DNA from: Psococerastis gibbosa
Taxonomy: Eukaryota; Arthropoda; Insecta; Psocodea; Psocidae
DNA: 64,000 bases
Direction of reading: 5' to 3'
Assembly (NCBI GenBank): GCA_963971405.1
Contig: OZ020485.1
Span: forward strand, 35,979,921 to 36,043,920
Under the pieces are notes generated by a model that was not told the DNA's origin, did not search any database, and saw nothing but the letters and a program-made list of their open reading frames with translations. Positions 26,629-58,425 of the stretch are shown piece after piece; the first letter of the stretch is position 1; every line of letters starts with the position of its first letter. Made by a program: the position numbers and the translations under genes.

Positions 26629-27019
26629 GGTGGGGATTCCACCGACCGGCTAGGGCTAAATACAAAAACGGTGACGTGGTAGCAGACATTCAGGACTTAG
26701 GCGGAGTTTCCACCGACCTTGCATTGCAGAATACAAATGACATTGAAATGTTTGTTTTCCTCTATGCCATAGTTAAAATTGATCAATGATCATACTGTAA
26801 AATCACAAACAAACAAACTGAAATTAAAAAATGGCGTCATGGGATATTTTAAGTACAAACATTTTAGAAGATTTCTATAAAGAGAAAAATTCTAATTTCC
26901 GTCAATGTCATTTGCATTCTGCAATGCGAGGTCGGTGGAAACCTCGCCTAAGTCTTGAATGTCTGCTACCACGTCACCGTTTTTGTATTTAGCCCTAGCC
27001 GGTCGGTGGAATCGGCGCC
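26629..27019. mobile_element. PIF/Harbinger-like palindrome FB1, composite copy a
   Basis: 391 bp flanked by TAA on both sides (26626-26628, 27020-27022), the target duplication of PIF/Harbinger elements. The outer arms run from GATTCCACCGACCGG to the block GACGTGGTAGCAGACATT. At the symmetry centre GACTTAAGTC sits a second element with its own TIR (TTTCCACCGACC). Inside it a 53-codon ORF (26831-26992, start MASWDILSTN) uses part of the right arm. The same composite recurs at 58042 and, truncated, at 62649. Confidence 0.85.
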
Positions 27020-28345
27020 TAAGCACAGGAGTCTTGGAAAGACGACTTCTCGGGATGATCAATTGTAAGCATTGGTGATATTACCTGGACATCATTAGAA
27101 ACCTATTTTTAAGCCTTTTCATGTGACATACAAATTTTGATGGTCTGACTCACTCTGTACCGTACATAACTGCGGGAGATGTTATCAGCTGAGGGTTGAT
27201 CTTGTACAGAGTTTCAAAGTTAGCCAAGTCTAATACGTCGTTCTATTACGTAAACTGAGTAAAGGTAAAGGCGGAAGTTGTGTGGTATCTGTTAATCTGT
27301 AGACGATGACATCAGTAATTAATTAACTGCTGCATTGAATCAAATACCTATCTATAAGTTAGACACCTTACTAGTTTCTAATTAAGCACTTGATATATGT
27401 TCATACCACTATGGCATGAAGGGAAATTGAGAGCCGATTATAAAATATGAAATGGGGAACTAACTAACCTGCCTTATCATGTTTGCTGTATCTAACCGTG
27501 TAGACTTCATATCACCTTCTTTCATCCTGCTCTGCTGGCTTGATAATGCTGAGTAAAAAATACAATAGGTTTCCTATCGGTACAACAATAGTAACTACTA
27601 CTATAGTAAAAAATGTGAGTTCAAAAAGCAAATAACATTTGAGAGTGAAATGCAAAATTATTATTGTGATAAGATTTACTATTTAAGATGTAAAGTTACA
27701 GTGCGTACTCATAGAATGCCTGTAGTTATTAATTTTATTTTTCAATTGATGCTGGAGTCTCTGGTAACTTCTATTGGTTATGTAATTGAGTGGTACGGAA
27801 GCCAACCGGGCAAATGCCATTTCGGTAATTTTTCTGGAGAGCCAAAAAACTATAGTTAAGTGCCCTGTGATTGGTCATCAGCCCAATATTTGAACTTGTT
27901 GTACGCTGATTTATGCCAGAATTAGCTTCTGATGATAAATTCAATGGATAGATTTCAAGAAAACAAATACATCGGTGCCAAAAGCCAAATTTCAAAAATT
28001 TGTGGACTTTGTTTGGTTTGCTTCTATACCACTCAATTGATTACTTGTGGTTCTGTACGCTAGGAAGTTGTTATAAAACGTGATAAGAAGCATTACATTG
28101 TTCAAAAACATGTGAGCTACCTTTTTTGATTTACTGAAATGTATTGAGCTTGTAATCTGTTCGGGGCTTTGCATTTTCCAGAGGATTTACTGCTTGCAGT
28201 AGAAATTATTTTGCAGCAAAAAATCTCTCTGCCTTGCTCCAAATGTTATTTATGACCAATCACTGTCGGTTAATAGGTGCTCTCTGCCTTTTTGATGTAG
28301 CATTTTCAAAAATATATATAGTACCTATTGATTCTCGTTTTTCAG

Positions 28346-28469
28346 AGGGACAAGTGGCATTGATATTGATTTACGGCGCGTCGACATCGATCAGTGTCCA
28401 TCATCACCCGGCAACAAAGAACTTAATATTTTCGCTGGATCCGACAAGTGTAAAAAGAAGACTACCATG
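28346..28469 (+). CDS. GPR158-like: GPR158/GPR179-like receptor, exon B
   Basis: 124 bp. Acceptor TTTTTCAG, donor GTTAGT. The first base completes the AAA codon split with exon A. Residues GTSGIDIDLRRVDIDQCP and NIFAGSDKC follow, matching the end of the extracellular ligand-binding region and the start of the cysteine-rich stalk in this family. It ends in phase 0, which matches exon C. Two cysteines precede the stalk. Confidence 0.83.
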
Positions 28470-28803
28470 GTTAGTATTATTATTATTTTTTTTTTAGCTA
28501 CAAACCAGAGTTCTATATGGGAGAGATCAGACATTCGAGCGCACCAGAAATATTTTTTAGAGGTCTGGGGCCCCCTGCTACGTTTTTTCAATGGCTGGTC
28601 AAAATCAGCTGAGTCCAGGACTCAAGCACTCTTCGCACGCTCGAATGTCAAACTCTCCTTAATAGAACTCTACTAAAACTATATTATGAAATTTACAATA
28701 GTATCCCCCCCCCTATATTTTTCGACTAAGACCGCTGGGTGGTTTTGTACCGAAAAGAAGGTCCTGCGCATGCCAACCAAAACATTTGGAGTATCTACAG
28801 TAT

Positions 28804-29172
28804 GCTTGGAACTAACTCCAGAGACATGTTCTGCCCCCCTCCCCCCTCCCCCTCCCCCCGGCTCAACAAAACATTCTGCGAATTATTGACGATCGAAATG
28901 TCAGGAGAACTTTGACATTGAAAAAACGGACTATAAGGTTGGGAGGGTACGAAGCGAGATGGAAAGAAGTTCCATGTAGCGAAGTATCCTTGGAACTAAC
29001 TCCAGAGACATGTTCTGCCCCCCTCCCCCTCCCCTCCCCCCCTCCCCCCGGCTCAACAAAACATTCTGCCAATTATTGACGATCGAAATGTCAGGAGAAC
29101 TTTGACATTGAAAAAACGGACTATAAGGTTGGAAGGGTACGAAGCGAGATGGAAAGAAGTTCCATGTAGCGA
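28804..29172 (+). repeat. Tandem duplication, two units of about 185 bp
   Basis: Units start at CTTGGAACTAACTCCAGAGA (28804 and 28989). They share a C-rich tract, GGCTCAACAAAACATTCTGC, and GGAAAGAAGTTCCATGTAGC. They differ mainly in the length of the C-rich tract and at a few bases, so the duplication is recent. The mirrored ORFs on the minus strand are a by-product. Confidence 0.9.
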
Positions 29173-29179
29173 TGTCGTG

Positions 29180-29575
29180 TGAGCTAACCCTGCAAAATCG
29201 CCGCCGAAACGAGGACAACAGGGTGGGGATGAAGACTTCTGATGTCTCTCAGAAAATGAGAGAAGAAAAGCTCACCTGGTGTGGGGCACGTCCAGAGGAG
29301 AGATGAAACGTCTTTATTAAAGCGTATTCACTCGCAAGTTCAAAATCGCAACTTGTGGGGGGCATGTCCAGAGGAGAGATAAAACGTCTTTATTAAAGCG
29401 TATTCAAAACACTCGCAAGTCCAAAATCGCAACTGGGGAAAACTGAAGATGACATTTCCCAGAAAAATTGAACACGACCTGAGGTCTCTCGCAATAAACA
29501 GAGAAGACCCTCTCAGCAGAGTCGTCTGGAAAAGGGAAAAGCCGCTGCCATGCCGCCGACAAAGGCGAAGTTAAA
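29180..29575 (+). pseudogene. LINE ORF2 3' remnant with internal duplication
   Basis: Broken frames show the KMREEKLTWCG and SRVVWKREKPLPC elements typical of the C-terminal end of LINE reverse transcriptase proteins. Within it, about 75 bp (29279-29354) is duplicated at 29355-29436 (GTCCAGAGGAGAGAT, GTCTTTATTAAAGCGTATTC). No intact domain. Confidence 0.55.
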
Positions 29576-30479
29576 GTAAAAGTAGTTATTTGCTCTTAGT
29601 AAAATTCAAATTATCGACTATTACGTAGCCTACCATAATTAATTCTGCGGTTCTAATTAGATTCAGTTTCAATACAACGGCTAACAAGAAACAACAGGTA
29701 CAAAGTCAGAAATACCTAAGGTTATCTGCCATCCATTGTTATAGTTAATTGGTTGCACGTGGGCGCTATATCTCACTAGTAATAGGAAACTTAATAGGAT
29801 ATTCTACACTCACAGCAGAATTACTTCCTTTTGAAGGTTACCAGGCTTGTTTGTTTTGCTGCGATTTCAATCTTTGCTCAACTGTCTTACTTACTGTCTA
29901 TGAAAATTACTGTTGGGGCTTAATTTCTCTTCACCAATTTGCCAACAAGTCACATATTAAATATTCAGAGGAAACCTAATTATTGGAACCCCCACCCCCC
30001 TTGTCGCAATTCAGAAAAACTACATAATTCTTCTTATTTTCTTTGCTGAGCATTGCAATAATATAATGATCATCATTACCTCTTTAAATCATCAGCTTCT
30101 TCTTTCCCTTCCGGTTCTGTTTCTGAGGCTTCCGCATTAGTGCTTTGAATTCGTAGTAGCACTGTGCAAGAGATGGACCTAGCGACAATAGGGTGATGGT
30201 TTCCCTCCCAGCGCTCTACCTAAGCTGGGGTTATCTGTTGTTGCCCTCCCTTAGTCTTTGGGTCAATTCCCTTCCCTCTAGGCAGAGGGGTGGCTGATCC
30301 CTTGCTATTCTGCCTCCTCCGCCCTTGTGGTGTTTCTTCCGCCGTTGGAGCCATTGGCATTGGGCTTGCACTTATTGAAAGGCGGTGCTAATCGCCTTAT
30401 TTCGGTAACTTTTTCGGTGTTTTGTGGTATTTAATAAGGGAACCCTCGCCACCTGGGTGCCACCTGCCTGGTTCCCCGG

Positions 30480-30790
30480 GAATCCTCCGAAGATGACAGG
30501 AAGATGACTTGACTGGAGGACGTGGGCCACCTGAAACCAACTCCGAACTGGGGTCGCACCTACAAAGAAGAACCGAGCCAGGTGAGGACAGCTACACACC
30601 CCTGACATATCCTACGAATGCGGAGCAGAAATACAGGACACTGAGCACCTGCTGCAGTGCACCCTGTGCCCGACCAACTGTACACTGGACGACCTTTGGA
30701 ATTGCACTGAAGCTGGCGTCAAGACGGCACAGCACCGGGCCCAAAGATTCGCCTAGTCTCCACATCTCGGACACGAAAAAGTAAAAGTAA
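30480..30790 (+). pseudogene. LINE ORF2 C-terminal remnant (zinc-binding tail)
   Basis: One frame reads ISYECGAEIQDTEHLLQC followed by TLCPTNC, the C-x-C...H...C motif near the C-terminus of many LINE ORF2 proteins. It ends at a TAG near 30757 and is followed by AAAAAGTAAAAGTAA. The upstream RT is missing: a 5'-truncated copy. Confidence 0.6.
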
Positions 30791-31275
30791 GGGTGCCCAC
30801 CACCGCCTCCACTGCGGCCCCTTCCTCCTTTCTCAAACGGGCTTGGGATCGACTTCGGTGGAGCTTAAGTCATCAACTTATTAATTATATTTGATATGAT
30901 GATGATGAAAGGTACAAAGTACAATGGAGGCCGCTGCTACGTTTATTCTGCTCAACAGGAAGGTCAGTGGCAAAACCTCAGCTGCGCTCCCACGAATATT
31001 TTATTTGCTGCCTGCAGCAATCCTGCAGATAAACTCGCAGTTTTGACGTTTTACATTATTCAGGTTCCTTTGAGCATTCTCTGTGCCTATTTCTTAGATG
31101 AATATCATGATATCACCAAAATTATGGCGTCTGACACCCCACAACCATTAACTTAAAAAGATAACACCATTGCATAACAACTCAATTCACGCTAAAGGAC
31201 TGGCCATACTCTATTTTGCATGTACCTTAAAGTACCTTAAAATTTAAAAAAAAAAAATGAAAGGGAAGGCCTGAT

Positions 31276-31397
31276 ATCATGAGTAGAGGAAGAAGAACGC
31301 AATGATCCACAGTAAAATACTTTAATAGTTTACTATTACTAATACTATTAAAGTATTTTACTGTGGATCATTGCGTTCTTCTTCCTCTACTCATGAT
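31276..31397. repeat. Perfect inverted repeat, 53-bp arms
   Basis: Arms 31276-31328 and 31345-31397 are exact reverse complements around a 16-base spacer. The arm begins ATCATGAGTAGAGGAAGAAG. I found no other copy in this window and no clear target duplication. Transcribed within the receptor intron, it would form a 53-bp RNA hairpin. Confidence 0.95.
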
Positions 31398-32284
31398 GTT
31401 CTCCAAGTTCCACGAAGTCACCAAGGAAACTCTCACAAGGAAGGGCTGATATATTATAATTACTCAATAATAAAGTTTTCATTTCCGAATCCAGCATCAG
31501 CAGCCTTTTTTTGTAGAGACTTATGGCTCATACTCAAAACTGTTAATAAAGATATATTACATTCACAACAATTGAAGGACCGGTGCGATGAATCTGCCCA
31601 AAAAACTTTCAAACCGACCTATCTATTTTATTTTTCTTACTCGGGTAACGTTTTTTTCGTATACACTTAAGCCATGTGGTCTATTGGGCCCCGTGTGCAG
31701 TATTACTACTACTAATCTCTTCCTCAAGACTATCTCTATACATAAAATTACGTGTCACGTTGTTTGTTTGCGATGGACTCCTAAACTAGTAAACCGATTT
31801 TAAATTTGAATTGCACACCATGTGCAATTCGACGTAACTTGAAAGATAGGATAGCTTACATTTCAATTTATAGTCGAAATATTATTTTATTTCAAATTAT
31901 TTGTCTGCATTACATGGTTGCATAATCGCAAATTCACAGGAAAAACGTAAAAAGACAAAAACCCTGCTGCGGAGCAGTACACGGGAAGGGATGGGTGAAA
32001 AATGCGGAAGTATTACATGCCCAATGAAAAATATAATGCAGACAACGCCCAACGGAAATGTGGAAAATTCACGGAATCCCTGACACGACATTCATTGACA
32101 TTGACTACGAAGTTTGCCGGGTCCACTAGTTTTCTTAATAAAGGACTAGGAACTGGCTGGAATTTTCAGGTTACACTTTCCTTAGCTCACGCATAACTGA
32201 ACTGAGTCCTTTCTTGCTTCACTATGTTCCGGGTATTCCTTACCATAGCAAACAACCGTCGCACACTTAAATCCCAAATCCTAT

Positions 32285-32505
32285 CATTTGCAGTGTGACA
32301 GGTTTAGGAACCATAGAAGGCGTCAACCGACCTGGGCGCCCGAAGAAAGAGTATCTGCAGCAAGTGATGGAGAATGTAGGGGCCAATACATACGAGGAGC
32401 TGAAGAGGGCGTGCCAGGATTAATGGGAGTGGAGGCATCGATGCCACATGTTGCTGCCAACCAGCCAACCGGCTATTACTTGAAGAAGAAGAAGATATAG
32501 GCAAT
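32285..32505 (+). pseudogene. LINE ORF2 3' remnant
   Basis: The frame reads GRPKKEYLQQVMENVGANTY, then EELKRACQD, a stop, and WEWRHR, the usual end of a LINE ORF2 (R-P-K-K...L-K-R...WR). It ends in AAGAAGAAGAAG. The in-frame stop makes it a dead fragment. Confidence 0.6.
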
Positions 32506-32739
32506 CTGTAGCATGAACGCGGTGTTCGAGACCATCGGACATAGCAGAAAAAGGGGTGCGCAATGATCCAACTGCTCAGACTGTAGGTTACTACACATCC
32601 TTTCCAATCAGTCACACAGTGTTTCCACAAGAAATGCCATGACTTTCTTTTATGCACTTATTTAATTGATGAAAAATGCTTACTTTTACAGTTTCGAAAA
32701 TTACCCCTTTTTATTCAAAACCCCTCATTGGTAACAAAA

Positions 32740-32840
32740 AGGGCAACGTAATAACGTAGGGACAACTTAACCACTTAGGGGACAACGTAATAGCTTATGG
32801 GACAACTTAGTAGTAACTTGGGGGGGGGGGGGGTGACATG
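32740..32840. repeat. Degenerate short repeats GGGACAACTTA and a G run
   Basis: Several imperfect copies of GGGACAAC(T/G)TAA, followed by a run of 14 G near 32820. Low-complexity tract of no clear class. Confidence 0.5.
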
Positions 32841-32971
32841 ATAACGTACTTACTCATTGATTACTCTGAGGCCACTTCAACTTTCACGGTGTAATCAGCT
32901 CTGTTCGTGTTTTAAGATACCTTATGGCTAAGGACATACGTTACCGACGATATAATATTTATAAAACAATA

Positions 32972-33471
32972 GGGGTCTTCACAGTGTTATACCTAGTTAA
33001 GTGTGTTATATCAAGTTAAGTTAACACACCAATAACCCGATAACCAAGCTAACCAGCGTGCTATCCTAAACGTACTTCCAAGTTGGTTAAGTGTGCTATT
33101 TAACTTGCGCTGCGATCGATAGCTCAGGTTTGATCGCCGCCATCTTTGTTTTTGTTGATTGATTTGAAACACACGTTTAAAAGTTTGTAGTATTTAAATT
33201 TATTTGTATAATCTATTATCACAAGCAATTACCGTAAATACTTAAAATTATAATAACCAAAATGAACAAAAAATATAATCAAATGTGGCACTAGAATAGA
33301 GTTCTGCCACTTTCTTTAAAGCCGTGCCACGAACGTCTGACTACTACCACGTTGTTTACCCTGTTAAATATAGCATAATAACTCACTCCCGAGGTACACT
33401 CACGATTGTGTGTTAACTTGGATAGCACATCTAACTCGAAAACTCGATAACACCAACACTGTGAAGACCCC
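32972..33471. mobile_element. MITE, 500 bp, TA-flanked
   Basis: Terminal inverted repeats GGGGTCTTCACAGTGTT (17 bp, perfect) with TA on both sides (32970-32971, 33472-33473). Subterminal GTTAAGTGTG/CACACAATCG-type motifs repeat in both orientations. No coding capacity. The TA duplication would fit Tc1/mariner-like transposition, but the TIR does not decide the class. Confidence 0.75.
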
Positions 33472-33757
33472 TAATGTCTTGTTGTCTGTCCTTAGACTTG
33501 AGGCACAGGCCTAGTGCAACAATGGTCGTCATCTCAACAGGTAGGCAAGATGACATCTCACTATAAGGACAATGGTCAATGGGATAAAATTGTGTAGTAC
33601 AGTACTACTTAAGCGGTGTAAGCCATGACTTGATCGACTTCTATACAATGTAATTGCAAATTCAAGTTAAGTGCAAAGGCCAAGGGGGTGGAAGTACTCC
33701 ACCCATTATTTTAAGGGTATAAGTACCTACATAAAAGAAAAATCTATAGGTAAAGGC

Positions 33758-33832
33758 AAATGGTAATGGTGTAATATTATTTAACGAAGGGTTAGTTGGA
33801 CTTACATTTCCTACTGTGCTATAGCCATTAGA
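33758..33832 (+). repeat. Dispersed repeat fragment (pair with 48078)
   Basis: GTAATATTATTTAACGAAGG and GGTTAGTTGGACTTACATT are found again, inverted, at 48078-48155. Family unknown. Confidence 0.6.
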
Positions 33833-33930
33833 GGCAGGGGCCGCACTGTCATTGAACCATTAGGGCGGATCCCATTATCAGTGAAAAGGGGGCCTTTTGA
33901 CAATTACCTCAGTAGGCAATGTAATGTCAG

Positions 33931-34146
33931 GACATGTAGAGTAGTGGTACAGATTCCGACTTTCACCCGAAAGGTTGTTGGTTCGAGTCCAACACTTGGT
34001 ACATTTTCTGGATATGCTTCGGAGGTAATGTAAAGCAGGGCTGGTCCTGGGCTCTCCTATTTGAGTGTTAGAGATGGTTTTATAGCCCTAACTCCGCTAG
34101 GTTGCCTTATAGTAATAGATCAAAAAGTCAATATTTATTTATTTAA
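33931..34146 (+). repeat. tRNA-Glu-derived SINE, copy 5
   Basis: Head ACATGTAGAGTAGTGG, CTTTCAC loop, B box GGTTCGAGTCC, body TTATAGCCCTAACTCCGC, tail AATATTTATTTATTT. Same orientation as the receptor gene. Confidence 0.87.
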
Positions 34147-34829
34147 TAGTCCAAGTAACCCTTTGTTAAATTATAAAAGAAGACATTTTAAGACGAGAAA
34201 ACGAAAGCTCTGTTAAATATGTCCAGTACTTTTGTCTGATAGCTTTTTGGTCCATTGTTTTAGATATTAAGCACACACTTTCAATTTTGAAGTTGTGAGC
34301 TGGTGTTAATCCTCTTAGCTGATTTCATTGAGAGCAGCCCGTGGCATTGGGAACCCTCTTCAGTTCAATGGTCTACTTCATCAACCCTTTGCTCTTACCA
34401 AATTTGAGTCTCTGCACTAACTTTTCCTCTCCATAATTCGATTTTAATCAGTATTACTCTACATCAAATATTATAATTTATCAGAAACAGGAAGCACCGC
34501 CACCACATGGGGCAATAATTCAAATTTTCCATCGGAAATGCAAGTTTAAAAAATTATGATATTAACTTTCGTACAACCGGTGATCAAATGCTTTAGTCGC
34601 TCCTCCGAACTAACTTCTGTTATCAAACGGGAGCAGAAATGTATTTAGCAACACTGCATATTTATATTACTGGGTCTACTCTTCGGGCTATGTTACAAAA
34701 TATTGAAATAATATCAGTAATAGTATTAGTTATATTATTATTATATATAATTAGTTATAGTTATAATAGTATTACGTTATTGTGGCATAATAAGAGTTAT
34801 GAGGAATTAGATAAAAATAAAGGGTACCT

Positions 34830-35505: not shown

Positions 35506-35515
35506 ACAATATAAT

Positions 35516-37247: not shown

Positions 37248-37298
37248 AAAAATCAAAGTACCGTACGGTGTGTAAAGTTTGTTTTTTCTTTATTTCAG

Positions 37299-39187: not shown

Positions 39188-40009
39188 AAATCTAAACAGC
39201 TCTTTTAAAAAGAATACATACGAGGTTCAACTATTCAGTTGGGCAAAACAATGTTTCGTCTACGTCTAGCATGTGAAACAATTAACAACAGCTAACTCTG
39301 TTGACAAACAATTTGCATTTTAATTAGGTCGACATTAATTAAGTGACCTATTGAGTGAACGGAAAATAAAATAGATATATTGTGGATAAATAAATAGTGA
39401 TAATATGTGACAACACTTTAAGAGGATATGCTACGTAGAAAGTTGGCACTTCAAAATACTTTTCATTTTTTATTTCATTAACTCAGCAAGTTATTAGTAA
39501 TTTGGCTAATTTAAGTTGCATAAGACTACTTCGTGCATCATACTATATAATCAGGTACATTTATTTATAGGTTTTGTAGTTTTTCAAAAAATACCAGATT
39601 ACTCCAAATTTTAGTCCCCTCTGGTTTTTATGAAAGAACTAAAGTACCAAAAATTTAATGTTTCCTATTGTATGCTGCATGAAGTAGTCTTCTACAACGT
39701 ACATGAGCCAAATCTGTAATAACTTGCTTTGTTGATTAATTAAAAAATAACAATTCAATAAAAACATCAAATTTTAGGGTGCTCATTTTCTCATGTCCTC
39801 TTAAAACTAAACAACTCTCTTAAAAAGAAAACAGACTCAACAGATTCAACTATTTTGTTGAGCAACAAAATGTTTCGACTACGTCAAGCATGTGAAACAA
39901 TTAACAGCAGTTAAATCTGTTGACCAAAATTTGCATTTTAAATTTTAATTATAGATCGGCATTAATTAAGTAACATTTTGAGTGAAAGGAAACTAAAATA
40001 GATATAATA
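39188..40009. repeat. Tandem duplication (about 200-230 bp units) split by a foldback element
   Basis: Unit 1 (39188-39418) and unit 2 (from about 39803 to 40009) share CATGTGAAACAATTAACA, AATTTGCATTTTAA and CATTAATTAAGT. A TTAA-flanked foldback (39422-39800) sits exactly between them. Units differ at roughly one base in ten, so the duplication is not new. Confidence 0.75.
39422..39800. mobile_element. Foldback element FB3, copy b (TTAA target)
   Basis: 379 bp with TTAA at both borders (39418-39421, 39801-39804). Starts GAGGATATGCTACGTAGAAA and ends TCATGTCCTC. The arms are diverged but pair at GAAGTAGTCTTCTAC against GACTACTTCGTGCATCA and AATTAATTAAAAAAT-type blocks. Related to 45299-46635. 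TTAA duplication is typical of piggyBac, but the terminal bases are not the usual CCY. Confidence 0.7.
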
Positions 40010-40690
40010 CTCATACTTTATTTAACTCTCGATATAGACCACGTAAATTGACATAAAATCACACTCCCCAGTATAAGTTAAGTTATAGCAGTTTGAACAC
40101 CCACTGTTATCATCTGTTACTCTTAAATAGGTATAACGAAGGTTTTCGCTCGGACGTTCAGTTTAACAGATTGTCACTTTTGATGTAAGTGATTTACTAG
40201 CGCTTCCAAGCTTCCTTGACCCATCTTTCGGTATCAGGATTTCCAGATCCAGATATAAATCATCATAATGAGAGTATAGAAAGCACAACCGCTAACTTAT
40301 TGCATTCTTAGTCTGTACAAATTGCACTGCCCCCCTCCATTTAAGTCATTTGTTTCCCCTAATCTGTCTTCATTTTTAACAAATTCAATAAGATCGTCGA
40401 GCTAAAAAGTTGTTAGGAACAAACCTTTTACTTACTGTATATTAACGTTAACGTTATAAGTATAATTTAACATTTCAGTAACGCTAATCTTGATATTAAT
40501 TTTCTTCTGGGCACATCCGACGATTTATCTTAACCAGGTTTGGAAAGATGTGGCAAAAGTTCAAAAACTCAATAGGAAAACTAACGATAATAAAATAAGG
40601 AATATTTTGGCTACAGCGCTGCCCGTCTCAAACTTTTGGCCATAAGTGAGGTATCGAATTCCACTATCTACCTCGGTCAGTAATTGCTTA

Positions 40691-40908
40691 GGCGGCTATG
40701 CCACTGTCCTCGTTTTTCATAATGCAAGTGCATGACGTGGTAGCAGACATCATTAGTAAGTCTCTACCATATTATAACTTAATTTATAATATATAAGTTA
40801 AGTATCTACATTATAGTCTCCTTAAAATATGGCAGAGACTTATTAATGATGTCTGCTACCACGTCATGCACTTGCATTATGAAAAGCGAGGTCGGTGGAA
40901 TAGCCGCC
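40691..40908. mobile_element. PIF/Harbinger-like palindrome FB1, copy b
   Basis: 218 bp flanked by TTA (40688-40690, 40909-40911). Right end GGTGGAATAGCCGCC; left end GGCGGCTATGCCACTG. Spacer CGCTTTTCATAATGCAAGTG on both arms, then GACGTGGTAGCAGACAT. The loop contains the AAATATGGCAGAGACTTA block, in the opposite direction to copy c. Confidence 0.88.
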
Positions 40909-41069
40909 TTAGCAGTCATTGCCTCAGTCTTCATGAAAAATTGCGTAACACAAGCTATACACCTTGTTTCACAAAACAAATCCCTAAGCTTACACCTTAC
41001 GATGTGAATACGAAATTTTTCATAAAGTCTAAGGCGCAGTGACTGTTATAATTACCACGACATTCAAGG

Positions 41070-45298: not shown

Positions 45299-46635
45299 GA
45301 GTGTACAGCCCGTAGGAAAGTGGCAGCCCGAAATTTAATACTTTTTATTTTTTATTGCTTTCCAATTTATACGTAGTATAAGGAAAGCTTTGTGATGGTC
45401 AAACTTTTAGATTCCGATATTTCAACGGATTTACACGTTTTGAGGTCCCAGGAACCCAAAAAAGTGGTTTTTACGAAATGCCTGTCTGTCTGTCTGTCGG
45501 TCTGTCGGTCTGTCGGTCTGTCTGTTTGTCGATTTGTGGGCAAACTACACAGTGGATTTTTATGGAATTCGGCATGTGGGTTCATAAAAATCATACCTCG
45601 GGACCATTTCTTCTATTTTGGGCTAACTTAATTTGGCGGGGTTTTATTTTCAAAAAACTCCAAAAAAATTATTCCTCAAAAACGGCTCCAACGATTTCTT
45701 TTAAATTCACATATAGTCGTTATTAATGTTAACGAAATGCGGGGGGTCGCTTGCCCCTTGATAGGTTGATTCGGGGGGTAAAAAAAAATAAAAATAACTA
45801 AACTTTAATGAAAAATGACTAAAAAATAATTTTTCTGCGAAACCTTTCTATCGATGATTTCTATCTTCAGGCATGTTTTAGGTGTTAAATTGAGTAACGA
45901 AACCGGGCAGGTTGCTTTCCCAAAAAAAGGATTTGCTTTTGTGCAAAAAATTTGAAAAAATGAAATTACTGTGTGGTAATGTGTTGGTCTGACCTGTCTA
46001 GAATATGCAATGCCATTGATTAATTCAGTGCTTTGGGATAGGTGATTGCCAGAATTGGTCCTTGGGGTCCGGACCCCCCCCCCCCCTCCCCAAATGGTTG
46101 CAGCGTACACTAGATAGAATGGAGTTTTAAAGATGTTTAAATATTTTGAGGTTACCTCACCTCCAGTGGCGTAGGTGGACCCCCCCCCCCCCCGAGTAGT
46201 CCGAAATTTACCCATAGGAAAATTCTTTACTAATAAATTGCTCATTTTCTCCATCTACGATTTGATAAATTGGAAAGCATGTTCGAGTAAACTCGAACCA
46301 GTTCTTTAATTAACTAAGCATGTTATTAAGGATTTGGTTCATCAAAGTTGTAGAAGACTACTTCACGCATCATGTAATAAGGGGTATTTCTCGTTTTCGA
46401 AATTGTAGTTTTTTTTATAAACATGCAAATATTTGATTAGCTATTGTTTATAAAATATTTGCATGTTTATGAAAAAACTACAATTTCGAAAATTAAAATT
46501 ATCTTATAATATGATGCATGAAGTAGTCTTCTACAACTTTGATGAGCCAAATATTTAATAACACGCTTAGTTAATTAAATAAAAAACAAAAAGTAATACG
46601 TTTCGGGCTGCCACTTTCCTACGGGCTGTACACTC
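45299..46635. mobile_element. Foldback element FB3, copy a, interrupted by a Helentron-like insertion
   Basis: TTAA at both borders (45295-45298, 46636-46639). Ends GAGTGTACAGCCCGTAGGAA and TTCCTACGGGCTGTACACTC pair perfectly for over 35 bp. Apart from the insertion (45357-46305) the element is a palindrome of about 390 bp, with the inner arm AACTAAGCATGTTATTAAGG against the block ending ACACGCTTAGTT and the centre TGCAAATATTTGATTAGC. Confidence 0.85.
45357..46305 (+). mobile_element. DINE-1/Helentron-like element, copy C, nested in FB3
   Basis: Starts GCTTTCCAATTTATACGTAG, has a GTCTGTCGGTCTGTCGG tract near 45484, and ends TTCGAGTAAACTCGAACCAG before TTC. Because it interrupts a palindrome, its borders can be read from the uninterrupted arm. 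The empty site is T-rich (ATTTAATTAACT) and at most two T are duplicated. Confidence 0.78.
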
Positions 46636-46990: not shown

Positions 46991-47015
46991 GTAAGCTCTA
47001 AATTTATTTTAGTTA

Positions 47016-47239
47016 GGTGGCTATTCTACCGACGTGCATTTTCAATGTGCATGTGTCATGACGTGGTAGCAGTCAGCAGATAACATTGATAAGTCTCTGC
47101 CATATTTTAAGGAGACTCTTATGTAGATACTTAACTTATCAATTACAAATTAAGTTATAATATGGCAGAGACTTAATGATGTCTGCTACCACGTCATGAC
47201 ACATGCACATTGAAAATGCACGTCGGTGGAATAGCCGCC
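47016..47239. mobile_element. PIF/Harbinger-like palindrome FB1, copy c
   Basis: 224 bp, TTA on both sides (47013-47015, 47240-47242). Ends GGTGGCTATTCTACCGAC and GTCGGTGGAATAGCCGCC. Spacer GTGCATTTTCAATGTGCATG on both arms, then the conserved GACGTGGTAGCAG block. The loop shares sequence with copy b but in the opposite direction. Confidence 0.88.
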
Positions 47240-47685
47240 TTAATGATAAAGGGTTGTCTTGAGGGTGATTTGGTCCAGGACTCAGGCGCTCTTGTAAAAA
47301 TATGAGTAACGTACACTATCCTATGGCAAAATAGTTATACTCAGTTTTAATGTTAAATTAAAACACTTCACTACAAGATTTGAATCTATTGTAATATTAC
47401 CCGAAACAACAAGTCAGTAGAATCATGCCTAGGCTACTTAATATTTTCAACGTAAAGTTGAAAACGCAATATAAATAACCTGTTAAATCATAAGTTTTCC
47501 AGGATTGTAAAGTATATCTACTGCAAAATTGCGTACTATACTGTAGCAGAACAGGTGTGTTCAGCTGAAATTAACATACAATGCAAGCTGCTTAAGTTAC
47601 ATTGTATTTTAGCGAACACTGTTCGGTTAAGTAATAAGCCTGATCTGCCCCCAGCCACCCTGCAACCTTGTCTTCTACAAGCTAC

Positions 47686-50721: not shown

Positions 50722-50986
50722 TATATTGTAGTATTATATAGTGTATATATAACACTGACATTAAATTAACTTTGGTTAAAGAGGTAACCACCTCGTTGTA
50801 ACCGAACCCGACTTGTCGGGGCTTGTGGTCCAGCGGTTAAGACGACGCCCCGGTTAGACGTAGATCGTTTTTTCCCCAGTTTTTTCCATATCCTCTAATT
50901 TCGGTTATAACGAGGTGGTTACCTCTTTAACCAAAGTTAATTTAATATCAGTGTTATATATACACCATATAATACTACAATATATT
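50722..50986. repeat. Inverted repeat enclosing a tRNA-like copy
   Basis: Arms 50722-50806 and 50900-50986 pair with about four mismatches (GTTAAAGAGGTAACCACCTC is mirrored). The loop (50807-50899) holds a truncated tRNA-like unit starting GGGCTTGTGGTCCAGCGG and its TTTTTCCATATCCTC tail. Confidence 0.88.
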
Positions 50987-51120
50987 GAATAAAGCATTGC
51001 CTTTTTGCAATTAAGTAAGCCACCTCTTAGATAGTTGTGTAGTTGAGCTAACCTGTCCAGCAACGCGAATCATGTCAATTAGAGCATAAGTAGAGGATTT
51101 GGCATTTACTGGACTTGTCG

Positions 51121-51193
51121 TGGCTTGTGGTCCAGCGGTTAAGACGACGCCCCGGTTAGGCGTAGATCGTGGGTTCGAATCCCACCAAGCCCA
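51121..51193 (+). repeat. tRNA-like sequence heading a short SINE
   Basis: It folds as a cloverleaf: acceptor (G/T)GGCTTG with CAAGCCC, D arm GTC...GAC, anticodon arm ACGCC-CCGGTTA-GGCGT, T arm GTGGG-TTCGAAT-CCCAC. The anticodon would be GGT (Thr), but position 33 is C, not the usual U, and the first acceptor base is changed. Two further copies (50819, and 55585 inverted) share the same 3' tail TATCCTCTAATTTCGGTTAT. A SINE or tRNA pseudogene is therefore more likely than a working tRNA. Confidence 0.7.
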
Positions 51194-51768
51194 GTTTTTT
51201 CCATATCCTCTAATTTCGGTTATACCTATTCCCAATGAAAAATGTTATGTTTTTTTATTGGCTTCCAGATAGAAGTTATACCCCCCCCCCGGCTTAAAAT
51301 TTCTAGCGCCGCCACTGGTGCAGGGCGAAACGATGCGTATATAATCAAGTATCACTAGAATCAGTGAATACTCTGGGCTGGGTTAGAACATGTGTGTGGC
51401 GAGCTACAGCAGTGGTGCCCCTTCTTGCCTGGAGACAGAAAAACTCACGTGAATGCTTACATACCCACTCTGTCTCTGTTCACCACATATATTCTTAAAT
51501 TTTTCTCAGGGGGAAATTCCTGGACCGTGAACGAGAAGGAAATATTCCTAATGGGGTTCTACAAAACTTCAGGCTGGTTATTTTGTGTTTTTTTTCTTTT
51601 AGTTAAAACTAGACTAATTAATCATGGAAAATGTTAGTGATGAACAGCAGATTTCAACAAAAAGGTTACCTTGAACAAATTGAAGCCTATAATGTAGCTG
51701 GAAACTACCCTACTTTTTGCGCCCTTTATTTTCCCGCTCAATTCTAGGCTATGCCAATGCCTCGATAA

Positions 51769-51902
51769 GGCGGGGATTTCACCAACGTCAATAGTGATAG
51801 TAAATGTTTTTTGATAGCAGACATTTTTAGACAGTCTAAAAATGTCTGCTACCACGTCAAAAAACATTTACGATCACTATTGACGTTGGTGGAATCCCCA
51901 CC
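51769..51902. mobile_element. PIF/Harbinger-like palindrome FB1, copy d
   Basis: 134 bp, TAA on both sides (51766-51768, 51903-51905). Spacer GTCAATAGTGAT(A/C)GTAAATG on both arms. The left arm has lost CGTGG from the conserved GACGTGGTAGCAG block; the right arm keeps it. Almost no loop. Confidence 0.85.
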
Positions 51903-52516
51903 TAAACAATTAAACTAACTTAACCGGTCCAACTCGATTTTGCCCATTCCACCAAATCCGTTAATGAACATTATAAATTAACCTAAGCCAACCGTATTGC
52001 GTATGATTCTGCAGCAATTCCAGTGGGGTAACCCACTCGTGTCCATCGTATATGTAACAAAGATGTGTTAAACGACAAATTGATGCATTTTGCATTTCTT
52101 GTACTCGAATGTGCTACTGTATGCTCGGTGCGGTTCCCAAACTCTAACGTTTGGTAAAGTTGGTTTTTGTTATAATTGAGACGGTGTTGGGTTTGCATGT
52201 GCTGATACAATAATTTATCATAAAGTGCATCTTACTATTTCATGCAATGAAAAACCATTTCCTATTGTTCTTTGTCTAGGAAGGGTTTATAGCAGCAATC
52301 CAATTCAAATCATTGCAGTGACATAGAACGCCCCATCGCTATTTTGAACAGTCCTATAGCGGTTAATTTCTAATTATAAATTACTTCATGAAATTCGTCT
52401 TTGAATCAGTCCGTTGGTTTCTAACAACCACACTCCCTTGCAAGCACTGAGATGATAATCCTATTCCAGTGGTAGGAGGATGCTAGTCCCCACCCAAGCA
52501 AACCGCGGGTTCGAGA

Positions 52517-52938
52517 CAGGGCCGGATTTAGGGTTTAACGGGAGGGGTGTCCTTAGACTGTACTCATGTGGGGGCCTCCGCCCACTTCCCCAACTTGAGG
52601 GTAGATTCTACACCTTAAATGCCAATTTTAACAACACTTGTCACAATTTCTTAATCGTGTAAAGTGTATGGTAAAGTGTATGCCTGATATTGATATTTCA
52701 TTGATTTACGTCTAACTTTTAAGTCTACGTAGGAGTTGATAATGCTGTTATGATTTACTGTTTTTAAGATATCTCTTTCTCAGAAACTTAGAAACTTAGG
52801 TATTAGGCATGCATACCTCATGTGCCACTTTTCTAATTTCTTAATTAATAATTCAACTTTTTTTTCATTTTGCTTTGAATATATTCCTAGGCCTGTTGGT
52901 GTTGCAGTCTTTTCCGCCTTATAGGAAATCCGGCCCTG
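52517..52938. mobile_element. hAT-like MITE, 422 bp
   Basis: Ends CAGGGCCGGATTTAGGG and GGAAATCCGGCCCTG. Flanks GTTCGAGA and GTTCGAGG agree at 7 of 8. The target lies in GGGTTCGAGGCG, which looks like the B box of a tRNA-related sequence (an A-box-like AGTGGTAGGAGGATG lies at 52469). Confidence 0.83.
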
Positions 52939-53004
52939 GTTCGAGGCGAGTTAGAGAAAATATTTTTTCTGTGTAACTTTATTACCAGTATGAATTTTTT
53001 ACAG

Positions 53005-53073
53005 GTCGTTCGTGCTGCCAGCCCCGTTCTGCTACGATTTATTACATTAGGGGCATTATTTATTTACTGTACG
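53005..53073 (+). CDS. GPR158-like: GPR158/GPR179-like receptor, exon E (TM2)
   Basis: 69 bp, 23 codons, phase 0. Acceptor TTTTTTACAG, donor GTAAGG. VVRAASPVLLRFITLGALFI, then YCT, is the first cytoplasmic loop and TM2, a strongly conserved block in this family. Joins cleanly to exon D (GNVK then VVRAASP). Confidence 0.88.
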
Positions 53074-53602
53074 GTAAGGGCGATATTGCATTGTTTTCTG
53101 GCAAAAGCCTATTACATTGATTATGCGGTAGATCCGATCCGTTAATTTCAATAGCCATTAGATTGATTTTCAGCCGACCGCTTTAGCATAATGGGTAACA
53201 TACACAATAGATATGGTGAATGTTTTGTGAAGTACACGTACTCTCATGTGGAAAGTACTATCGTATTTTAAAATGAAAATTTCATAAAATTGAACTAAAA
53301 TGATATGATTGGTAGCCTCAGCCCTTTTGTGTTTTTATGCTACTTAATTGAATGAGCTTTACGATGTGATAAACAAGGCAAAAATTGTAAACATACACGT
53401 ATTTATTAACAGTAAAAATATTATTAGATAAGTTTGTACAGTAGGCTATTTACAGGGAGCAGTTTTTTCATTTTTTGATTTCAAAGACACCACAAAAGTA
53501 AAATCTTTGCTGTAGTAGATGAAAATATCTAAACTAAACTAAAATATAATATTAGATTGCATTGAATTTCTACCCAACTAACTTCAGATAATTTTATTCC
53601 AG
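53074..53602 (+). other. Receptor intron E-F
   Basis: 529 bp, AT-rich, nothing recognisable inside. The shortest repeat-free intron in the gene. Confidence 0.8.
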
Positions 53603-53712
53603 CCAATCGTAATGTATCCCACACCCAATCTTGGGACTTGCACAATACGAGTGTGGCTTCGGGAAATTGGGTTCTCTTTGACTTATGGAGCACTTATGCT
53701 AAAAACTTGGAG
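53603..53712 (+). CDS. GPR158-like: GPR158/GPR179-like receptor, exon F (TM3)
   Basis: 110 bp. Acceptor TTTTATTCCAG, donor GTAAGT. It encodes PIVMYPTPNLGTCTIRVWLR, then EIGFSLTYGALMLKTW, and ends with two bases of an AGR codon. The extracellular cysteine (GTC) and the WLRxxGFxLxYGxLxxKTWR pattern are the class C TM3 signature. Confidence 0.92.
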
Positions 53713-53849
53713 GTAAGTGGTAAAAAAATCACAAACCATTATTATTTTTAATTACTTAAGTAAGAAAATAGTAAAGGAAAAAATAATAAATTGTGTACTG
53801 TTTATGTACGGTTTCGAAGTTTCATTTTACATTTCAACGTTTTTTTTAA

Positions 53850-53989
53850 GGCGCTTATTCCACCAATGTCAATAGTGATAGCAAATGTAGTTTTGACGTG
53901 GTAGCAGACATTAAGGACAGTCTAAAAATGTCTGCTACCACGTCAATACTACATTTACTATCGCTATTGACGCTGGTGGAATAAGCGCC
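53850..53989. mobile_element. PIF/Harbinger-like palindrome FB1, copy e
   Basis: 140 bp, TAA at the left and TAT at the right (one-base decay). Ends GGCGCTTATTCCACCA and TGGTGGAATAAGCGCC. Spacer GTCAATAG(T/C)GATAG(C/T)AAATG on both arms, then GACGTGGTAGCAGACAT on both. Confidence 0.85.
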
Positions 53990-54036
53990 TATAGAAATGA
54001 AACCAAATATGGGTTTAATAACTTCTTTGCTGAACC

Positions 54037-54118
54037 CTAGTTGAGTGTGAGAGAGGGACTTATGGCCCTAACTCCGCTGGTGGTCTCAGCTATAATAAAG
54101 TCATTACTTATTTATTTG
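54037..54118 (+). repeat. tRNA-Glu-derived SINE, 3' fragment (copy 7)
   Basis: Only the 3' 80 bp: CTAGTTGAGTGTGAGAGAGG, GCCCTAACTCCGC and a TTATTTATTTG tail. 5' truncated. Confidence 0.75.
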
Positions 54119-55582
54119 TTGTAGTCGCAAACCCTAACCCTACGTTAGGATACAGTATGACAACAAGTAGAAGTTGGAATCAGTTAATTACAAGGATTGA
54201 AGCGCAGAAGTCAAGGAGTACAAGTGACATTTTTTGCGTTTTGGAGTTAAGTGCACCGTAGTAGTCCTCTTGCAGCTGTTTATCCTATACAATGCAACCG
54301 AAACATCGGGACCTGTCGTTTTGACAGTGCTAGAATTCATGGAAAAGGGGTATACCTATACATTTTCAATTGAGTTCCAATATTTAGACTCAATTTTCTC
54401 GAATGTTTGTTTTGGTCACTTGCACCCTTTGGCCTCTAGGCCTTTCATTTGTTGTCAAGTATTAATTCATAAACTGCGCCTCCAAAGCAATAGCACTATG
54501 ATCTGATATGATGATAATATATATATATGACAATACAAGACTGTGTGTAATGAACAGAAAGAAATTTATTTCCAAAAATGTACAGTATGAGTTAAACGAC
54601 ACTAGTTACATATCCACCCCATCCAACGCATGATTTAATGATTGATGTTGTGAGATCATAATAAGAATTAGTAAATTAATCATTATTTCTTACAGTCAAT
54701 ACAGTAAGATAAGAAAAAATAAATACCGGTAAGATAATCGATGAGTTAGCCTAAGTTACCTCAACTTCCATGCTTTATACAGACTGTACTGCGACAGTGC
54801 ACCTACAGCGTAGCCTATAAATCAAACTACGGGTTGTTAGTCGTTAGCTAGTTACTCACTTGGTTTTTGCAGAGAATGGTAGACAGGTAACGCACATTAA
54901 GGATGTCACTGACATATGGGAAATGGACTATTCATAAAAGAATTTCTACCCCATGTGATTCATTCATATAGAACCGCGACTCAGCAGTTTTACTAGAATC
55001 TCTGTCATTTGTCATTTGCTCTCATTTGCAATTTAATTTTAACCGCTGTATCCCATTGAACAAACTAAAAATTAGTTTTTTTTATAACTTGTAATAATTT
55101 GACACTTTGTGAACTTCTCAGAAGGACAGGTACCGCGTAGTACATTACCATTCCCTCATTATATGCTTACCCACCTAGGTTGCCTAAATGGTGTTTATAA
55201 ATTCGCTGAGTTTTTGCATGTAAAATTCCAACACTTTTCAAAGCAAATGAAATATGATACCTCGAGTGAAAGTGGTTCCGTTATCTATTCTATTCGTGAA
55301 GGAGACGAATTGAAGTTAGAAAGTTTACTCCACATTTTCCAAATTCACAGGCAGAAAATCCTTGGGGACAAACAATTCACTTTCTCTGGATTTAGACAAG
55401 TATTTGACTTTGCTAAATGTATTTTTTTCAAAATTAGTTTTAAAAAAGTAGAATAAACTGTTTAAAAGATTTAGGCAACTCTGCAGTATATGTACAATGT
55501 AGACAATTGCTAAATTATACTGGATAACAGTTTTATATACAAAATGAAAGTTCTTCATGTCAACTCAGTTCTATTAGTTTAT

Positions 55583-55655
55583 AACCGAAATTAGAGGACA
55601 TAGAAAAACTGGGCTTGGCGGGATTAAACGCCTAATAATTATTTGTAAATAATGT
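55583..55655 (-). repeat. tRNA-like SINE, 3' part (relative of 51121)
   Basis: The reverse complement of the T arm and tail: ATAACCGAAATTAGAGGA and ACTGGGCTTGGCGGGATTAA. Diverged and truncated. Confidence 0.6.
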
Positions 55656-55741
55656 AGCGGTCAGAGTGATTTACTGTGCCAGCGGGCCCACTATGGCGAT
55701 TTTTATTTATTATTATTTTTAATCTTAACTTGGGATTAAAA

Positions 55742-55812
55742 ATTTAAACAAGATAATTTTACAATGGAAAGTGCTATTCAAAATTGTTTTGTTTACATTT
55801 TAAACCCCAGGA
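55742..55812 (+). repeat. Fragment related to the 34830 palindrome
   Basis: AAACAAGATAATTTTACAATGG and AAGTGCTATTC correspond to AAACAAGATAATTTTGTAATGG and AGGTGCTATTC in the 34830-35005 element. Confidence 0.6.
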
Positions 55813-55911
55813 ATAAGTTAATACTAAACGGCATAGCAGAGGTCCGCAGTAGCCTAAACGAGATTAAAGTCTGGTGACTCAGTGGTGAGTAATTTTGATT
55901 TATGCTTCTAG

Positions 55912-56126
55912 AATTTCAGTAATTTTTCACGTTCGTTCTGCAAAACCCATCCGGATTACTGATATGGACTTATTGAAAAGGCTCGGAATGATCGTCGGCG
56001 TGTTTTGTGTATTCCTGGTAATCAGAACTCTGGTGGCTCCCCCTGTCGTAATCACTGGACGCACTGCCGACGATCTCAAAGCTTACCTGTGCCGAACTGA
56101 TTGGTGGGATCATTCATTTACTTCCA
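55912..56126 (+). CDS. GPR158-like: GPR158/GPR179-like receptor, exon G (second cytoplasmic loop, TM4)
   Basis: 215 bp. Acceptor ATGCTTCTAG, donor GTAAGT. The first base completes the Arg codon of KTWR. Then ISVIFHVRSAKPIRITDMDL (second cytoplasmic loop), TM4 (RLGMIVGVFCVFLVIRTLVA) and the second extracellular loop with LCRTDWWDHSF. It ends one base into a codon. The loop cysteine (LCR) is the expected disulfide partner of the TM3 cysteine in class C receptors. Confidence 0.92.
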
Positions 56127-56665
56127 GTAAGTTTTACGTTTGCTACTTATTAGATAGCAAGGCAGAAATTGCGATATCGAATGTTTTTCAAGATGTCCAT
56201 CTCGTGAAGTCACGTATACTGTTGGACGAAGAATTGAAGAAAACCATAAAACAGTTTCTTCGATTTTATATATGTTTATTTATGCTATGGTTCGTCTATG
56301 TTCCTGATCCAACAGTACAACACATGTAACTAGTTGCGCAAGTTGATATGCATACTGTAGCCAAGGGCGGATCCAGCAGAAAATTTAGGGGGGTCACAAG
56401 TCGTATGTAAGTTTGAAAGGTAATTTTTTTCCTGCAAATTTGAGTTTTATTAATTTTTTTTTTTAATTTTTACTATCATGTGAATTTACTAATTTAGGGG
56501 GGTCATGACCCCCTGACCCTCCTGTGGATCCGCCACTGACTGTAACTTCATGTACTGTACCATGTGCGACAACTTCAAGCTTACGGTTAAACGGCCCAAC
56601 ATTGTAATTTACATTGTACTACTGTGTACGACTGTATCATATTAATAAATCATAATTTGTTCCAG
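56127..56665 (+). other. Receptor intron G-H
   Basis: 539 bp; a hAT MITE takes up its centre, otherwise nothing seen. Confidence 0.8.
56362..56538. mobile_element. hAT-like MITE, 177 bp
   Basis: Ends CAAGGGCGGATCCAGCAG and CTGTGGATCCGCCACTG. Flanks ACTGTAGC (56354-56361) and ACTGTAAC (56539-56546) agree at 7 of 8. An inner AATTTAGGGGGGTCA is repeated. It makes up about one third of this intron. Confidence 0.87.
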
Positions 56666-56804
56666 TGGAAGTTTTATTTTTAATTTGGGGGATACGTCTG
56701 TGCATTGTTGTACGCAAAGCTCCATCAGAATTTAATGAAGCCCGATTCATATCAATGGCTATTTACAACGAGTTTATTCTGACAGTCTTCTTAAAAGTTT
56801 CAAT
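56666..56804 (+). CDS. GPR158-like: GPR158/GPR179-like receptor, exon H (TM5, TM6 start)
   Basis: 139 bp. Acceptor TTTGTTCCAG, donor GTAAGT. The first two bases complete ATG split with exon G. TM5 ([15 protein letters not shown]), a short third loop ([12 protein letters not shown]) and the start of TM6 ([18 protein letters not shown]). The EFNE loop motif is characteristic of GPR158-type and some other class C receptors. Ends two bases into a codon. Confidence 0.92.
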
Positions 56805-56946
56805 GTAAGTCCCTTATAACATTTGTAGATTTTTTCAATTTTTCAAAATTAAGTCCTGACATCGGCAACAGTAATAAATAGCATGTTGGTGCGAGCGTTC
56901 CCTTAAATTATTTTTCGTGGCAAATTTTAAGACTATATTCGGTTTC

Positions 56947-57106
56947 CATGGCATGGTGGTAGTGTGCTTGCACTTGTGCGAGTCTCTGGAGACGTGTCGT
57001 ACCTTCGAACTCGATACAAATACCAATTAGGTTACTTAATGAGGCAACTAAAGGTCAATCGGATACATTCATTAAATGGTTTGCATGCAATTAACCTTTT
57101 TAAAAA
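56947..57106 (+). repeat. SINE-2 family, copy 6
   Basis: Head CATGGCATGGTGGTAGTGTG, tail AATTAACCTTTTTAAAAAAT. Internal deletion of the CTACACACC region. Confidence 0.72.
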
Positions 57107-57316
57107 ATGAGGTGACTTGATTACCCCCGAAATCACTAGCCTAATATCTACCCTAAACGAGCACAAAAACACCACAACCAATGAGAGTTTAGGTACCTGA
57201 AAACTAGTAGAGGATCCACTCTCTTGACAATTGCTCTATTTGGGGTGTTGTAGTCAGCAACATGGCCTGCAGCTGCGTTTTTCCTATGACTGGTAGAGGT
57301 ACCTATTAGGGTTGAG

Positions 57317-57512
57317 CAAGGCCGTAGCCAGGATTTTTTTTTTGGGGGGGGGGGTTTCAAAAAATTTCTTCAGAAAATGTCATTGGATATTACATAGTGG
57401 TTCTTATTTTTCCTCTCAAAATCCGATTCTATCTAGTATCAAGCCATTTAATTTCGGGGGGGGGGGGTTTGAACCCCTATGAACCCCCCCCCCTCCCTTG
57501 GCTACGGCCTTG
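57317..57512. mobile_element. hAT-like MITE, 196 bp
   Basis: Ends CAAGGCCGTAGCCAGG and TTGGCTACGGCCTTG. Flanks GGGTTGAG (57309-57316) and GGGCTGAG (57513-57520) agree at 7 of 8. Inner G and C runs make up much of its length. Confidence 0.87.
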
Positions 57513-58041
57513 GGGCTGAGTGGATTTAGTGCCGGTGGAATTTCTTTTTTTTTATCTAGTCTCCATTTCATGCATGATCGCATGATTACACCTTCCCTCA
57601 ATATTGTTTTTATGCCAGTCAAAAACAACCTGCAACCTTTCTGTCTAGACATTTTTATCTTGGTCCATAATTTTCTACAATAGAATAAAATTAGATAATA
57701 CTTTATACTTGTATTTCAAAAAAATATTATAAAAATTTTAAGATTCTTTGTAGGTACTACAAAATACACGTGATTTGGGGGGGGGGGTCTTAAACCTCAC
57801 CACCTATCACTAAGGGGGGGGGGGTGAAAAAATGTTTTAAAAAAACATCACGTGATTAATGGACGGCCCCCAATGAAATTGAGCCTGTATAGTGGTATAA
57901 AATGCACAGACAATTTACCATTACAGATTACAGGCTGGTCGATAACGTTTAAAAATACATGTACGTGATTCTGCAATAATTGGTTAATAATAAGGGTATC
58001 AGATACAGCAGTGAAGTATATCTGCTTAAAAGTTCCACTTA

Positions 58042-58425
58042 GGTGCCCATTCCATTGACCGGCTAGGGCTATTTCCAAAACGGTGACGTGGTAGCAGACA
58101 CTCAAGACTTAGGTGGCGTTTCCACCGACCTCGCATTGCAGAATTGACGGAAATGTTTATTTTCCTCTTTGCCATAGTTAAAATTGATCAATGATCATAC
58201 AATAAAATCACAAACAAACAAACTAAAATTAAAAAATGGCTTCATGGGATATGTTAATTACAAACATTTTAATAGATTTCTATAAAAAAATATAAAAAAA
58301 CATTTCCGTCAATGTCACTTGCAATCTGCAATGCGAGGTCGGTGGAGACGCTACTTAAGTCTTGAGTGTCTGCTACCACGTCACCGTTTTGGAAATAGCC
58401 CTAGCCGGTCAATGGAATTGGCGCC
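58042..58425. mobile_element. PIF/Harbinger-like palindrome FB1, composite copy f
   Basis: 384 bp, TTA on both sides (58039-58041, 58426-58428). Same nested design as 26629. Both arms carry the private variants TTCCATTGACC and CTATTTCCAAAACGG. The inner ATG frame at 58236 is stopped after about 17 codons. Confidence 0.86.

Follow-up and report, generated by a model that had tools for sequence, protein, structure and literature searches.

Why do the two arms of a palindromic transposable element match at positions at which one element differs from the next? The question is posed by a stretch of 64,000 nucleotides from the insect Psococerastis gibbosa (Psocodea, Psocidae; assembly GCA_963971405.1, contig OZ020485.1, positions 35,979,921 to 36,043,920 of the forward strand), here called the window, which contains six copies of a palindromic miniature inverted-repeat transposable element (MITE). 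In each arm, an outer block near GGYGNNNATTCCACC is followed by a spacer and then by a 17-base inner block, GACGTGGTAGCAGACAT. The initial annotation had noted that the spacer differs between copies and yet is the same on both arms of one copy, and had proposed either that arms are regularly homogenised or that new palindromes are made by copying one arm. The analysis reported here points to the second: it is fairly probable that the symmetry was founded by fold-back copying of arms in source lineages, followed by amplification and independent decay. In samples of two classes, of about 390 and 225 base pairs (bp), mutations that arose after insertion stay mostly on one arm, and two related families carry opposite inverted duplicates of one shared segment.

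Six palindromes and their family

All six palindromes, with outer block, inner block and arm-matched spacers, were found at the positions first given for them. Two belong to the 390-bp class. The one at 26626..27022 (+ strand; initially listed at 26629) measures 397 bp with its TAA/TAA flanks, has inner blocks at 26673 (+) and 26959 (-), and carries the spacer CGGCTAGGGCTAAATACAAAAACGGT on its left and right arms alike; a scan for terminal inverted repeats (TIRs) and the consensus arms show that its centre harbours a further MITE with TIRs of like kind (26697..26951, no strand assigned). The other (58039..58428, + strand, TTA/TTA; initially listed at 58042) has blocks at 58085 (+) and 58366 (-), with one mismatch each, and a nested MITE in its centre as well (58109..58354, no strand assigned, right end approximate and set by eye). 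The 225-bp class is represented by 40688..40911 (+ strand, TTA/TTA; blocks at 40734 (+) and 40849 (-); spacer type a) and by 47013..47242 (- strand, TTA/TTA; blocks at 47060 (+, two mismatches) and 47179 (-); spacer type e), whose centre is oriented opposite to that of the former. The 146-bp class contributes 53847..53992 (no strand assigned, TAA/TAT), with blocks at 53895 (+) and 53928 (-) around a 16-bp centre. A similar element at 51766..51905 (no strand assigned, TAA/TAA) retains its right block (51842, -), the left being shortened; GTCAATAGTGATMGTAAATGTTTTTTGA is the spacer of both its arms, and it stands outside the arm counts because no block pair was parsed. The 17-base block is thus present on both arms, with 0-2 mismatches, in five of the six copies, and only the right block is intact in the copy at 51766. 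Exact TTA or TAA duplications flank five of the six, as had been claimed, the exception being the TAA/TAT of 53847. A seventh copy, at 62832..62920 (- strand; block at 62857, one mismatch), is a one-armed remnant of the 390-bp class, for which no partner block was found within 450 bp.

The matching of arms is not complete: the copy at 26626 has GGGG on one arm and GCCG on the other, right before ATTCC, and the arms of the 390-bp class mostly differ at sites 6 and 45.

In the genome of 409,210,807 bases, the inner block is far more abundant than expected by chance: with at most two mismatches it has 23,877 matches on the + and 23,872 on the - strand (47,749 in all), as compared to 23 and 12 (35 in all) for the reversed 17-mer. 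The near-equality of the two strands follows from the palindrome. What is seen of a MITE family is a length of 145-397 bp, the 47,749 matches, and arms that pair. The sample consisted of 91 regions around exact 17-mer matches listed on contig C1 (first 5 Mb), together with the window and eight search loci; young copies are favoured in it because it comes from one end of one contig and was chosen by the exact block. Parsing yielded 91 two-armed copies, of which 73 measure about 390 bp, 13 about 146 bp and five about 225 bp, with two pairs that look near-identical (L098/L099 and L096/L101) counted as separate copies. Identical 3-bp flanks occur in 49 of the 91 (42 of them TTA or TAA, i.e., TWA), and the flanks of the rest differ.

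Nesting is a trait of the 390-bp class, the centre of which contains a second MITE whose TIR is of the same kind. In the copies viewed, the nest junctions are of the CTTA...TAAG type, without a direct TWA repeat and with either spacer (one has CTAA). This common junction suggests that the inner MITE derives from one insertion; recurrent independent insertion into different outer palindromes was also considered, but the junction type points otherwise. Elements of the 146-bp class have a centre of 15-16 bp, and the block together with the start of this centre has 1,350+1,399 genome matches. At C15:21243715-21244104, one MITE arm is present five times on the same strand, at spacings of 142, 71, 71 and 71 bases, in a small tandem array.

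Arm variants in resident copies

Regular homogenisation, in which hairpin repair or gene conversion keeps the arms of resident copies alike, has in its favour that arm divergence is 0.0435 within a copy and 0.0636-0.0672 between copies (62 copies of the 390-bp class; reached in 0/5,000 permutations), and that some low-frequency mirrored variants occur among 225- and 300-bp copies (see below). However, the signal of the 62 copies stems from few sites. The same permutation test gives no clear effect for the inner block alone (391/5,000 permutations reach the observed value) or for positions 65-74 (3,811/5,000), and sites 6 and 45 remain different between the arms.

Arm variants were also counted over 71 copies of the 390-bp class (L143 and L147, with another spacer type, stand outside this count). 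Variants found in a single carrier are one-armed in 54 of 55 cases and mirrored in one; for 34 variants with 2-4 carriers, 11 of 88 carriers are mirrored, and for six variants with at least five carriers, 105 of 195. Four of these six common variants (sites 17, 18, 37 and 41) are mainly mirrored. Comparing this 4:2 split, made by eye, with the 1:54 of single-carrier variants gives a Fisher value of 1.4e-4, which, like that given below for the 225-bp class, is a guide only, since neither copies nor sites are independent.

The mirrored variants belong to types with many copies. The only mirrored single-carrier variant, in L072, is part of an arm type with 204+192 exact genome matches (396), among which nine +/- pairs, 301-312 bp apart, were counted by eye in the 100 matches listed. 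The arm type of the 58042 copy has 422+415 exact matches (837), with 29 pairs among the 100 listed, and that of L143 has 40+50, with 11 pairs among all 90. The arm-matched variants that had been thought private to single copies are consequently not so: that of 58042 has the 837 exact matches just given, and the AAATAC spacer type of 26629 recurs in L072. By contrast, a rare one-armed spacer variant has 11 genome matches and no +/- pair, an observation that is weak alone because exact pairs cover only 18-58 of 100 matches in the mirrored types. Low mirroring of rare variants and the many genome matches of mirrored types together imply that mirrored variants are marks of subfamilies. Mutations after insertion stay mostly on one arm. 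A sample of this size largely refutes homogenisation in resident copies, although it would still be compatible with a rate that amounts to a few percent of that of mutation. As a regular process that explains the matched arms, it is highly improbable.

How the palindromes were founded

The comparison of spacers between arms and between copies was made in the 225-bp class, for which 23 places were taken, 21 with a block pair and two (L184 and L186) without. The 21 paired copies combine seven spacer types, distinguished by eye, with one asymmetric centre. After removal of L177, whose right arm is cut, 20 copies remained, in which spacer identity between arms is 0.925, as compared to a mean of 0.741 after shuffling (reached in 0/10,000 shuffles) and to 0.731 between copies. 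Between copies, the block (0.932) and the centre (0.894) are more alike than the spacer, and in 174 of 190 pairs the centre exceeds the spacer in identity.

The differences between spacer types are themselves symmetric. Left and right consensus arms are identical in types a, b and d and have two differences in type f, and the substitutions that separate a from b (4), a from d (9) and b from d (5) are all mirrored, as expected if one arm is copied onto the other. Inside the seven types, one-armed variants number 81 and mirrored ones eight (69 and five in types a, b, d and f); the Fisher value for 9:0 (a-d) versus 5:69 is 6e-9.

These data bear on a possible, though unlikely, account by ordinary subfamilies, in which each spacer type would have its own autonomous element with identical terminal repeats of about 60 bp and the MITEs would arise by internal deletion, with no arm copying. 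Mirrored variants would then be marks of subfamilies, and the spacers do mark subfamilies. The spacer ends tested also stay in their own class: neither the 225-type end GTGCATGACG nor the 390-type end ACGGTGACG, the two ends sought in front of the 146-type centre start, has a genome match in this combination, although the centre start without spacer has 1,350+1,399. However, seven spacer types of the 225-bp class share one asymmetric centre, and L143/L147 share a centre with L072 (0.94 alike), but not the spacer (0.57-0.63). No autonomous element with the ends of the family was found in the loci examined, the 225/300-bp pair described below requires an inverted copy, and the joint change of the two arms in each parent would be left unexplained.

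Several spacers on one centre could also result from centre transfer, i.e., from gene conversion that ended in the conserved blocks and moved one centre between symmetric subfamilies that already existed. The Drosophila transposon Galileo, for which such a transfer has been proposed, provides a precedent (PMC3573991), and copies with two arm types show that exchange takes place. If centres moved freely between subfamilies, one spacer would be expected with several centres, but the two spacer ends tested (two ends only) never occur with the 146-type centre. Moreover, the mirrored substitutions that relate types a, b and d are not a product of centre transfer. This account is quite improbable.

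The second line of evidence for arm copying comes from a related family. Of 20 regions around the 225-type junction, three contain a 225-type pair and 17 do not, and most of these 17 belong to a longer palindrome family of about 300 bp, a length that is an estimate because one arm only was seen whole. Consensus sequences, from 19 copies for the 225-bp family and from eight copies with one arm type for the 300-bp family, have 89 of 90 bases in common. The 300-bp family repeats the right part of this shared segment, inverted, on the left (93/94), and the 225-bp family repeats the left part, inverted, on the right (42/44); the 225-bp family departs from the 300-type arm at CCTTAAAA and continues into TATGG. 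With opposite sides of one segment duplicated, one arm would have been made by copying the other, whichever family came first. The inverted duplicates themselves are seen, the copying is inferred from the alignment, and the proposal that new palindromes are made from one arm is supported. In one copy, L161, the left arm is 225-like, with a spacer of type f, and the right arm is 300-like; it fits a stage before arm copying and also recombination between the two families. The outer arm of the 300-bp family also comes in three or more types, all on one inner arm (L154, L157, L159, L163, L165, L170 and sisters), and the outer types match wherever both arms can be compared. A copy of this family, L186, has its loop inverted with respect to sister copies.

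Taken together, the six loci of the window would be copies from sister subfamilies within one palindromic MITE superfamily that is very abundant and has TWA duplications. The outer and inner blocks are alike across subfamilies, probably because proteins bind them, and the spacer would be free to change. Arms would match today because the elements that founded each subfamily were symmetric: changes in the source lineages came to lie on both arms, the most likely route being a fold-back in which one arm served as template for the other. The symmetric sources would then have been amplified, and in the resident copies, the arms of which are not visibly homogenised, later mutations remain mostly one-armed, as the samples of the 390- and 225-bp classes show. 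Fold-back copying as the carrier of spacer changes between source arms is an inference, and slow copying at a constant rate along long source lineages, or some copying in resident copies, may also be involved.

Several observations weigh against this explanation. The mirrored route of the spacer changes is not observed step by step. In comparisons with type f, the ratio of mirrored to other differences is 9:2 (a-f), 6:11 (b-f) and 5:17 (d-f); the one-armed counts are put down, without proof, to insertions and deletions that disturb the alignment. The eight mirrored variants inside the 225-bp types could represent arm copying in resident copies, as could two mirrored variants in 300-bp copies (L160 and L168). 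Sites 6 and 45 of the 390-bp class are common and yet mostly one-armed (mirrored in one of 44 and two of 29 carriers), and since they are so widely shared, symmetrisation of the sources must have been incomplete. Finally, L071, L091 and L095 carry two arm types, which indicates that recombination between copies also acts.

A further possibility, which is tentative and rather doubtful, is that symmetrisation is coupled to mobilisation: a moving element would pass through a fold-back stage, a hairpin or the repair of a one-ended gap, in which one arm is rewritten from the other, and each successful source would be a fresh palindrome. The conserved blocks might then double as protein contacts and as short homologies for template switching. 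Such a coupling, if true, would account for the rarity of mirrored changes in resident copies and for their dominance between sources. With founder symmetry by arm copying, mirrored changes can be read as marks of founding events and one-armed changes as a measure of the time since insertion. This touches the open question of how MITEs originate and why many of them are palindromic. The genome offers tens of thousands of block copies and a family pair that displays the fold-back switch at base level. Once all copies are aligned, the extent of arm copying could be determined for sources and for residents separately, and its tie to transposition thereby tested.

Parentage and comparison with known systems

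An autonomous element with the same ends, encoding a DDE transposase, would be the natural parent of the MITEs. A search of the genome for the transposase domain PF13359 gave 220 candidates, of which 150 were scored, and loci were fetched around some of them only. When L009-L046 and L127-L142 were scanned for the family ends or for any TWA-flanked TIR pair, none was found to end in the family TIR; Myb-like proteins were not searched for. Complete MITEs of the family are present only inside or beside some of the PF13359 loci scanned. In the best-scoring transposase lineage, 20 of 21 loci (L009-L028, which are 98-100% identical copies, but not L029) carry a MITE at one fixed position, some 570 bp away from the DDE match, and this MITE is regarded as a passenger because it lies at one place inside near-identical sequence. 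The sole TWA-flanked TIR pair in 17 sequences scanned delimits L138 291-4440, which spans 4,150 bp with TAA flanks and a perfect 16-bp TIR, AGCTGGGTACAGACTT, around a PF13359 match. This is a candidate autonomous Harbinger-like element, the TIR of which is unrelated to the MITE family. The parent of the family is either lost or beyond the loci fetched. The initial assignment to PIF/Harbinger stands on one feature, the TWA duplications (exact in 42 of 91 copies and in five of six in the window), from which this superfamily appears most likely.

The window holds further repeats. At 31276-31397, the 54-base arms of a perfect inverted repeat flank a loop of 14 bases; there is no TWA-type TIR, and the repeat may have arisen by recent fold-back duplication. 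A different palindrome family has two copies (46302-46582 and 39460-39753), with arms 80-90% complementary, which both contain GAAGTAGTCTTCTACAAC and lack the TIR of the 17-mer family. An inverted repeat at 50722-50984 has 85-base arms, 96% complementary, and a 93-base loop that is tRNA-like by eye only. Two long open reading frames (471 and 1,243 amino acids) at 12939-18067 resemble a non-LTR (long terminal repeat) retrotransposon by eye and are followed by a run of 72 A at 18263, and long open reading frames on the - strand at 1-3571, cut by the start of the window, look by eye like gag/pol of an LTR retrotransposon.

Tourist-like or PIF/Harbinger MITEs such as mPing are short, non-coding elements with TIRs and 3-bp duplications of the TWA type. 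The elements described here differ from them in that the palindromes are strong and a change of spacer type involves both arms, and no matching transposase was present in the loci fetched. The Angel MITEs of zebrafish (described by Izsvak and colleagues in 1999) reportedly keep imperfect palindromes despite large divergence between copies, for which a model of fold-back amplification is said to have been put forward. A literature search on quasipalindromes found no paper, which does not show that the pattern is unpublished.

The Tm1 Mutator/Foldback family of root-knot nematodes resembles the MITEs of the window in having TIRs with conserved motifs and a variable part; however, this part is a tandem repeat, the number of which is unequal between the two ends of an element, and the duplications are 9 bp long (PMC3169594). 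The initial annotation knew of no description of the pattern, but a described analogue is Galileo, a member of the P superfamily in Drosophila mojavensis. The two TIRs of a single Galileo copy agree at 98-100% of positions, although subfamilies differ from one another; there are chimeric copies, the TIRs of three subfamilies are found around one and the same central region, and it has been proposed that TIRs are exchanged, converted or, during repair, copied to the other side (PMC3573991). Matched arms within a copy and one centre with several arm types are common to both systems. Galileo has long TIRs and 7-bp duplications, whereas the elements of P. gibbosa are short MITEs with 3-bp TWA flanks; they are also set apart by two conserved blocks with a variable spacer between them and by a fold-back switch between two families that can be followed at base level.

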